Positions 16,768 to 18,875 of a stretch of DNA of 64,000 bases are shown here, piece by piece. Position numbers and translations under genes: made by a program. The number at the start of each line of letters is the position of its first letter. Position 1 is the stretch's first letter. Location of the stretch: contig NZ_CP027806.1 of the NCBI RefSeq assembly GCF_003353065.1, positions 2,562,501 through 2,626,500 on the forward strand. Direction: 5' to 3'. Source of the DNA: Cyclonatronum proteinivorum. Its GTDB lineage: Bacteria > Bacteroidota > Rhodothermia > Balneolales > Cyclonatronaceae. The notes beneath the pieces were generated by a model. It was given only the letters and a program-made list of their open reading frames with translations. It was not told the origin of the DNA and ran no database searches.

Positions 16768-16825
16768 GTTAACAGCGTTAACCGCTTAACACTGTTAACA
16801 TAGCAAAGCAGCGTGGTGATGTCAA
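16768..16825 (-). promoter_or_regulatory. Promoter with double palindromic operator for the fad operon
   Basis: On the minus strand TTGACA (16825-16820), a 17-nt spacer and TATGTT (16802-16797) resemble a -35/-10 pair. Covering the -10 and the likely start site is the near-perfect inverted repeat GTTAACAGCGTTAA-CCGC-TTAACACTGTTAAC. Each arm is itself a TTAAC-N3-GTTAA palindrome, giving two operator units. The same unit recurs once, at the acyl-CoA synthetase/thioesterase locus (47969-47981). A TetR-type fatty-acid repressor binding here is inferred; no such gene is in the window. Confidence 0.7.
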
Positions 16826-16989
16826 CAGCTTCCGGAATTTTTTTTTAATTCATAATGCAGCAGTACATCAAATCAAATATCTAAGGATTAAGGGTATATA
16901 CTATTTTGCTATTAGTGTTTTTTGCTTTATAATTGACACTAATTTTACGAAGGCACCCATCCTTTAGATTTAAACCACTCATTACTTAT

Positions 16990-18012
16990 ATGGAAATCCA
17001 GTCAGTCGTATTCCCCAGTGTTATAGAGGCATACAGCGCGCAGCTCAAAGGCGTGACACGGTATGAACTTAACGGTCTCAAAATCCAGGAGGGCAATACG
17101 GATTATTTAATTGGTAATCTTGCACTTACAGAAGGCAAAAACCCACATAAAGCTATCAATAGCTATGTTAATGAAGCTGATTATGGCCTTTTAATCAAAG
17201 CTGCTTTATTGGTCGCAACAAAATTTATTCACGATCCCCTTATTGTCACTACCGGTTTCCCTCTTTCTACAATCAATATTAACAAACGTCAGGCTATAGA
17301 GTACATCTCTGGTATTGATAACATTGTCTTCGATTCAAGCCCGGCAGGCGGAGACGGTTACAAAACCCGACAGCTGGATGTTGCAGATGTAAGTATCCTT
17401 GGTGAAATTGAGGCAGCCAATAAAGCAGTACGCGATATACCCGAAAAAAAGCTGAGCAAATTTTTCATTGTTAGCCTTGGCTATGGAACAGTAGAGGTTG
17501 CCTTGAGTACGCCAGACGGTATGGTAAAAAGAACCATGTCATCTGGTAGCGGACTCAGATATGCCATAAACCGCGCCATGGATCAGCTTAATGAATCCCA
17601 CTATTTAGGCCTCAGAACAGAGCATCAGTTCGACATTGCTTTCCAAAAAGGTAAAATTGTAGTTAACAGAAGGCCACTTGACCTCACCGAGATCCGGTCG
17701 CGCACCTTAAAGAATTACTACAATGAAGTGATCTCATCGCTGATCAGAAACCACTGGTCAGATGAAGACTTCAATACGGCTGAATCTCTCGTACTTGTTG
17801 GTGGTGGTGCACATTACAAAGACCTTGTGAATTGCTTCAAAGAGGAATTTGATTCAATCCTTGAAGTATTTATTCCTGAGCGTCCAGCCTTTCAGGCGAG
17901 TATCGGATACTGCCTAAATTCTCTCGAATTAGCGGAAGGTAACAAGTCCGTCTGCGTAGGGATTGACATTGGCAATGCTCAAACGGTAATTAGCTTGTTT
18001 AAAGACAGCTGA
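16990..18012 (+). CDS. Actin-like (ParM/Alp-type) ATPase, apparently circularly permuted
   Basis: A 340-aa protein of the actin/HSP70 ATPase fold, ParM/Alp branch. Residues 1-100 match the Alp N-terminal domain after its first strand: VVFPSVIEAYSA, YLIGNLALTEGKNPHKA and LIVTTGFPLSTI. Phosphate-2 is IVSLGYGTVEVALS at 160-173, and the adenosine motif is LVLVGGGAHY at 267-276. The phosphate-1 motif, normally at the extreme N-terminus, is missing there and appears at the C-terminus as VGIDIGNAQTVISLF (323-337). Joined end to end, the C-terminus runs naturally into the N-terminus. The ATG at 16990 is preferred over an upstream TTG (16933). It could build a filament for plasmid-like segregation or cell organisation; that role is inferred. 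Confidence 0.8.
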   Translation: MEIQSVVFPSVIEAYSAQLKGVTRYELNGLKIQEGNTDYLIGNLALTEGKNPHKAINSYVNEADYGLLIKAALLVATKFIHDPLIVTTGFPLSTININKRQAIEYISGIDNIVFDSSPAGGDGYKTRQLDVADVSILGEIEAANKAVRDIPEKKLSKFFIVSLGYGTVEVALSTPDGMVKRTMSSGSGLRYAINRAMDQLNESHYLGLRTEHQFDIAFQKGKIVVNRRPLDLTEIRSRTLKNYYNEVISSLIRNHWSDEDFNTAESLVLVGGGAHYKDLVNCFKEEFDSILEVFIPERPAFQASIGYCLNSLELAEGNKSVCVGIDIGNAQTVISLFKDS

Positions 18013-18030: not shown

Positions 18031-18058
18031 AAACCTCATGTTACCCGACATGAGGTTT
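18031..18058 (+). terminator. Intrinsic terminator after the actin-like gene
   Basis: Perfect 11-bp inverted repeat AAACCTCATGT / ACATGAGGTTT with a 6-nt loop, followed by a run of T. It lies 18 bp after the stop, so the actin-like gene ends its own transcript and is not simply co-transcribed with the bactofilin. Confidence 0.9.
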
Positions 18059-18263
18059 TTTTTTGCACCCGAAATGCCCTAAATTGATTAATCAGACGGA
18101 GGCAATTTTGATTATTTTGAAGTTTTGATACAACCATCAAAGCATGTAAATAGTTAATAAACAAACAGTCTGAATAATATTGTGATTCAATCATCCTTTT
18201 GGGTTTGTCAAAAACCCGAACGTATCAGAACAGGCGAATTATTAAAAAAGAGAACTGAGAACA

Positions 18264-18875
18264 ATGCTTAAAAACAAAAAAACAAACGTCGATGATAAGG
18301 ATTTTTCAGACTTTGAAAACGTATGCATGCTTGGCCGAAACTCACTGATCAGAGACAACCGGCTCATAGCATATGCCAATTCGAAAATTTCGGGTTCTCT
18401 CATGCTGGATATATACTGTCAGCAAAGTCTGATTATTTCGGAAGAGGCAGTTGTCGTCGGCGATATTTACGCCGATACCGTTCATGTTCACGGTAAAGTT
18501 GCCGGTAATATTCACGCTACACAAAAAGTGCACATCCATGAGAAGGCTCAGATCTGTGGTATGGTACAATGTAAGGTTATCAAAATTGATGAGGGTGCCT
18601 TTTGTAAAATTGACGGAAGCGTTGGAAGCACGGAAAAGCTAACGGAACCTTATCGTACGGCCAATGATCCGTTTTACACCGAAAATATTGACCTGATCCG
18701 CAAAACCTTTGACGAATTGATCTCAACAGATTCTGATATACAGACAAAAGCTGAAGCGCAAAAGCAAAAGGCCACACGCTTCCGACTGAAAACCGAAGAG
18801 AAAGCATCAGAAACAACCGATTCGACCAGCAAAGAAAATGATGCAAAGAAATCCGGTAACTCATTGATTTTTTAA
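18264..18875 (+). CDS. Bactofilin-type polymer-forming cytoskeletal protein
   Basis: A 203-aa cytoplasmic protein. Residues about 30-125 form the bactofilin beta-helix, seen as regular short repeats: ISGSLMLDIYCQQSLIISEEAVVVGDIYADTV and HVHGKVAGNIHATQKVHIHEKAQICGMV (written here in two pieces). The C-terminal tail (about 140-203) is charged and low in complexity, rich in Lys, Glu, Thr and Ser, as in many bactofilins. ATG at 18264. These proteins polymerise without nucleotide and organise cell shape, wall synthesis or chromosome anchoring. Its neighbour is an actin-like filament gene, which makes a shared cytoskeletal role plausible though unproven. Confidence 0.85.
   Translation: MLKNKKTNVDDKDFSDFENVCMLGRNSLIRDNRLIAYANSKISGSLMLDIYCQQSLIISEEAVVVGDIYADTVHVHGKVAGNIHATQKVHIHEKAQICGMVQCKVIKIDEGAFCKIDGSVGSTEKLTEPYRTANDPFYTENIDLIRKTFDELISTDSDIQTKAEAQKQKATRFRLKTEEKASETTDSTSKENDAKKSGNSLIF

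Follow-up and report, generated by a model that had tools for sequence, protein, structure and literature searches.

A ParM/Alp-type actin-like protein with its phosphate-1 hairpin at the C-terminus is conserved across several families of one bacterial phylum and is often encoded beside a bactofilin

Polymers built on the actin fold form filaments of very varied architecture, and the order of their chain has hitherto been taken as fixed. The phosphate-1 (P1) motif comes first in MreB, MamK, Ta0583 and Hsp70, none of which is permuted, and in conventional ALP/ParM proteins it precedes the FPSVIE-type segment. Ordinary actin folds have both of their chain ends in subdomain IA. A second kind of bacterial system bears on what follows: clusters that pair a bactofilin with an M23 peptidase act in cell-wall morphogenesis and the control of cell shape (PMC10945521).

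Here, we analyze a 64,000-nucleotide stretch of the Cyclonatronum proteinivorum genome (the window), which is assembled as one contig of 4.29 Mb and whose nearest relatives are Balneolales assemblies. An initial annotation of the window had described an actin-like ATPase with the motif order phosphate-2 (P2), adenosine, P1, the last at the C-terminal end, and had held that permuted actins were not a described group. Searches of an open-access library returned no relevant report, subscription papers and preprints lying outside their scope. The product of the gene is, with near certainty, a circular permutation of a ParM/Alp-type actin-like protein, with the first beta-hairpin and its P1 loop moved to the C-terminus. 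The features of the locus are as follows.

16990..18012, + strand: permuted actin-like ATPase gene, 340 aa, in the order strand 3/FPSVIE, P2, adenosine, last helix, P1
17011..17028, + strand: FPSVIE, residues 8-13, with the Pfam ALP_N match running from profile position 16
17467..17496, + strand: phosphate-2 motif IVSLGYGTVE, residues 160-169, with Ser162 in place of the usual Asp
17788..17817, + strand: adenosine motif LVLVGGGAHY, residues 267-276, with G271-G272-G273 invariant in 22 members
17926..17949, + strand: linker, residues ~313-320, connecting what used to be the C-terminal helix with what used to be strand 1, as seen in the alignment of 22 members
17950..18000, + strand: phosphate-1 hairpin VCVGIDIGNAQTVISLF, residues 321-337, now C-terminal, with G324, D326, G328, N329 and T332 invariant across the 22 aligned rows
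18034..18064, + strand: terminator-like hairpin and T-run between the permuted actin and bactofilin genes, seen in the sequence
18264..18875, + strand: bactofilin gene, 203 aa, the downstream partner (Pfam PF04519, E=6.9e-18)

The translation of 16990-18012 begins MEIQSVVFPSVIEAYS..., has a P2-like stretch, FFIVSLGYGTVE, at residues 158-169, and carries P1, VGIDIGNAQTVISLF, at residues 323-337 of 340, so that three residues remain before the stop. Upstream of 16990 the frame stays open for just 19 codons more (to a TTG at 16933), and these contain no P1. Further upstream, a palindrome of 14 stem pairs, GTTAACAGTGTTAAGCGGTTAACGCTGTTAAC, occupies window positions 16768-16799 and is possibly an operator; the gene on its other flank is divergently oriented and encodes a fatty-acid-oxidation-like protein of 788 aa.

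An order of this kind could be an artefact of a truncated or mis-started gene, a frameshift, or a C-terminus that resembles P1 by chance. We regard this as scarcely conceivable, and we found no support for it. Homologues were present in 23 of the 147 genomes searched, that of the window included. Across a 22-row alignment, in which identity to the window protein ranges from 37 to 95%, every row has the FPSVxE segment first and P1 last; conservation to this extent puts the motif order well outside what chance would give. In a profile search of the phylum, 23 of 395 genomes, belonging to 11 of 171 genera, proved to encode this permuted protein; the matches include families outside the class of Balneolales, and in the class of one such family 6 of 294 had it. 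The permuted order is common to all 29 members examined, which come from independent genomes in several families of one phylum. The homologue search that the initial annotation had proposed as a check has therefore returned the permuted order in all relatives, distant ones included, and an N-terminal P1 in none. At 27 loci, the P1 pattern occurs exactly once per reading frame, near the C-terminus every time, and the 400 nt upstream hold no P1 pattern in any frame, as had been claimed for the window gene. Truncation, start error and frameshift are ruled out by this upstream scan and by the conservation of order.

Comparison of close relatives adds a further line of evidence. The window gene and its counterpart at locus L002 are 81% identical as DNA and 95% identical as protein, with a dN of 0.04 and a dS of 2.1, the latter only rough because it is saturated. 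Within the last 23 codons, 18 differ and 18 of 18 are synonymous, a pattern by which the P1 tail is judged to be under strong purifying selection. On these sequence data, conservation, the upstream scan and the silent tail changes already refute the artefact reading.

Two other possibilities were tried and rejected. A normal-order progenitor within the clade was not recovered, as an ALP_N search of 98 relatives returned permuted members only. A viral or phage origin was set aside because viral-contig scans and phage searches found no relative.

The initial annotation had also suggested aligning the protein to the Alp_N and ParM profiles with its C-terminal segment moved to the front. The window protein scores 36 bits against Pfam ALP_N (cut-off, 26.3). 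In its natural order, the match (E=1e-8) begins at profile position 16, as befits an N-terminal FPSVIE that normally follows P1; after the segment is moved to the front, the match improves to E=3e-11 and begins at position 1. The ParM match likewise improves and reaches the profile N-terminus. In a rotation scan, the 29-member alignment was cut at many points, and each version was set against a profile built from nine conventional plasmid ParMs. The natural order scored 187 over ParM columns 31-327 (profile-profile E ~1e-25), and the optimum, with residues from ~312-322 onward brought to the front, scored 213 (E ~1e-29) and covered ParM columns 6/7 to 326/327. The score drops on either side of this peak, which coincides with the predicted breakpoint. 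A PDB profile search with a nine-member alignment gave near-equal scores for the rotated and natural orders, both weak, and was uninformative. The conserved order, the rotation gain against ParM, and the purifying selection on the P1 tail bear out the earlier view that this is a real permutation, not a truncation.

Structure prediction was less informative. Two AF2 models, made from a three-sequence alignment (window, L002, and L003), have mean pLDDT values of 49 and 45, and the N-terminal 135 residues and the C-terminal tail fall below 50. Residues ~140-297 of the first model are reasonably confident, and Foldseek placed this model with ParM, Ta0583, and MreB (E 2.6e-7, ~180 aligned columns, TM ~0.4). 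The second model has a C-terminal hairpin (322-328, 331-337) at low confidence. With model confidence this low, it is inferred and not shown that P1 packs into the sheet. We propose that the new chain ends arose within the hairpin that had linked strands 2 and 3 of subdomain IA, and that a linker of roughly ten residues came to join the old C-terminal helix to the old strand 1. Since the old strand 1 now follows that helix, the P1 hairpin would be made last; it would then pack back into the same sheet and complete the ATP site, yielding an actin fold with P1 in place and ATP bound with Mg. Among the 22 aligned members, the linker (~313-320) is variable in sequence and differs only slightly in length.

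With P1 at a free C-terminal end behind this variable linker, the geometry could also permit exchange between subunits. The hairpin would then insert into the next subunit and not its own, completing the sheet and the ATP site there in the manner of a donor strand, and polymerization itself would build the active site. No measurement excludes such an arrangement. We nevertheless consider it improbable, because the linker is short and an ordinary actin fold has its two chain ends together in subdomain IA, which makes closure within one molecule the simpler solution.

We next consider the catalytic site, where the initial annotation can be extended: the P2 aspartate of the window protein is replaced by Ser162 (codon at 17473-17475). 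Over the 29 members of the chromosomal family, this column holds S in 27, N in one, G in one, and Asp in none (0/29). The aspartate is kept in those conventional ParMs of our comparison set that have a recognizable motif (e.g., IIDIGFNTVD), and the ParMs of Persephonella, Thermovibrio, and P. putida retain it. The P1 aspartate (D326) is invariant in the chromosomal family alignment. The D170A mutation in ParM reportedly abolishes filament dynamics and leaves static filaments (PMC5539076). For the permuted actin, on which there are no ATP-binding data, it is reasonable to infer that nucleotide is bound and is hydrolyzed slowly if at all; with the P2 aspartate gone, the inferred filaments would show slow turnover or none. 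Alternatively, the loss could mean that the protein makes no use of ATP whatsoever.

The genomic neighborhood provides a clue to function. A bactofilin gene lies downstream on the same strand at 20 of the 27 loci, at a distance of 0-272 nt in 16 of them, and the remaining flanking genes vary between clades and are otherwise unrelated. The permuted actin gene is thus coupled to a bactofilin gene, although no bactofilin is found nearby at 7 of the 27 loci. The genome of the window has only two bactofilins. At three loci from Bacteroidota (L087, L088, and L090), an M23 peptidase gene precedes that of the permuted actin, which is followed by genes for a TPR protein and then the bactofilin. Both the window and L066 have a hairpin of ~-14 kcal/mol between the permuted actin and bactofilin genes, and L065 has a comparable one; it is absent from most other relatives, and the one at 18034..18064 was not listed in the consensus scan. 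Where this terminator-like hairpin intervenes, as in the window and its closest relatives, the two genes need not share a transcript.

Several variations on this neighborhood were observed. One relative from the same class carries two permuted actins (L082 and L083), each with its own bactofilin downstream. L080 and L081 present a different context, with the permuted actin between genes for very large proteins (~1240 and ~1180 aa), short gaps to these flanking genes, and no bactofilin. At L087, L088, and L090, the genes after the bactofilin have sizes and an order like those of an ATP synthase operon, judged from sizes only.

Our preferred reading, to which we assign a probability of roughly 0.6, is that of a circularly permuted ParM/Alp actin that binds ATP and forms a slow or static filament, acting with the bactofilin as a scaffold. 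The permuted actin and the neighboring bactofilin polymer would together make a positional or morphogenetic scaffold and would not serve plasmid partition. This role as a bactofilin partner is inferred, and there are no data on filaments, ATP binding, or interaction with bactofilin. The gene coupling and the absence of the P2 aspartate from 29 of 29 members would also suit a monomeric switch, which would bind ATP and control either bactofilin assembly or an envelope enzyme but would not itself form filaments. Bactofilin polymerization needs no nucleotide, so that a regulator would be enough and a second filament unnecessary. We see such a switch as unlikely, though it deserves some weight: the nearest families by profile (ParM and the PHROG 691 partition protein) are filament formers, and ParM mutated at this aspartate still forms filaments (PMC5539076).

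A second, distant group of permuted proteins was found on plasmids. A match at 23% identity in Aeromonas plasmids is likewise permuted, starting MRTVHFKPDL and ending TGVNVGLDIGNAYLKGVFDV.

L059:783-1811 and 1804-2175 (CP071152.1): distant permuted ParM-like gene and small downstream gene, with further members at L091, L092, and L093

Both Aeromonas and Pigmentibacter ruber (Bdellovibrionota) have such relatives, which carry no annotation beyond hypothetical protein. In 4 of the 4 plasmid loci examined, a small gene follows closely downstream, where ParR would lie, with an overlap of 8 bp in Aeromonas. On the A. caviae plasmid, three 57-nt direct repeats, ~106 nt apart, lie downstream; no direct repeats occur in the stretches searched of the flanks on two A. 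media plasmids and the Pigmentibacter plasmid. The plasmid-borne group probably serves plasmid partition, as inferred from this arrangement, and together with the small gene (and the repeats in A. caviae) it is a probable undescribed partition system. At the P2 aspartate position these proteins have Gln; loss of the aspartate coincides with permutation in both groups.

In natural order, the plasmid group and the chromosomal family align over their full length, including P1 (hhalign probability, 98%). When the P1 segment is left out, a tree separates the two permuted groups together from the nine conventional ParMs (branch support, 94/88), with the caveat of long branches and a midpoint root. 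Such a tree fits a single origin of both groups but is not proof of it. It is possible, and we suggest only tentatively, that one ancient permutation founded an actin clade with two jobs, namely, bactofilin-linked cell organization on Bacteroidota chromosomes and plasmid partition in proteobacteria and Bdellovibrionota. On this view, every member would have lost the P2 aspartate, the filaments would be static, and the moved hairpin would be the center of a rebuilt contact between subunits.

The plasmid relatives also raise the question as to whether the chromosomal protein descends from a plasmid partition (ParM) system and still segregates DNA. The overlapping or adjacent small gene in the ParR position in Aeromonas and Pigmentibacter would be consistent with this, as would the A. 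caviae repeats. However, the recurring chromosomal neighbor is a bactofilin, no ParR-like gene was seen among the neighbors of the chromosomal family at 27 loci, and the searches turned up no close relative of that family on a plasmid or in a virus. We therefore hold continued DNA segregation to be very improbable.

A permutation conserved in nature would demonstrate that strand 1 can be moved and that both the nucleotide site and the filament contacts can accommodate this, and the new chain ends inside subdomain IA would be of use for comparison and tagging. Little is known of what regulates bactofilins, and the scaffold reading, if it holds, would link actin-type filaments to them. Because the P2 aspartate has been lost naturally, the family offers a direct test case for a static, ATP-locked actin filament.

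Several described systems share part of this picture. Model residues ~140-297 share the fold of the actin-fold ATPases MreB, MamK, Ta0583, and Hsp70. Residues 5-27 of a mitochondrial Hsp70 chain weakly match family-profile positions 317-339; that is, the N-terminal strand of Hsp70 resembles the C-terminal P1 segment of the window family. With the bactofilin/M23 peptidase modules, such as BacA-LmdC of Hyphomonas, the bactofilin neighbor is shared, and the M23 peptidase is present in three relatives. A text search of the Hyphomonas BacA-LmdC paper for "actin" gives only general references to the actin cytoskeleton and no actin-like gene in the cluster (PMC10945521). The closest comparison is with the ParM/Alp proteins (Pfam ALP_N PF17989, PHROG 691, and plasmid ParM/StbA), to which the window family is homologous over ~300 residues, with the FPSVIE-type segment, the P2 region, the adenosine GGG motif, and the C-terminal helix collinear in both. 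The window family differs in having its P1 hairpin at the C-terminus (motif at 323-332 of 340 in the window protein) instead of the N-terminus, in having Ser, Asn, or Gly instead of the P2 Asp (ParM D170), and in being chromosomal with a bactofilin. Because two defining ParM/Alp features, motif order and the P2 aspartate, are not met, we consider this family a variant of the actin-like kind and not a ParM.
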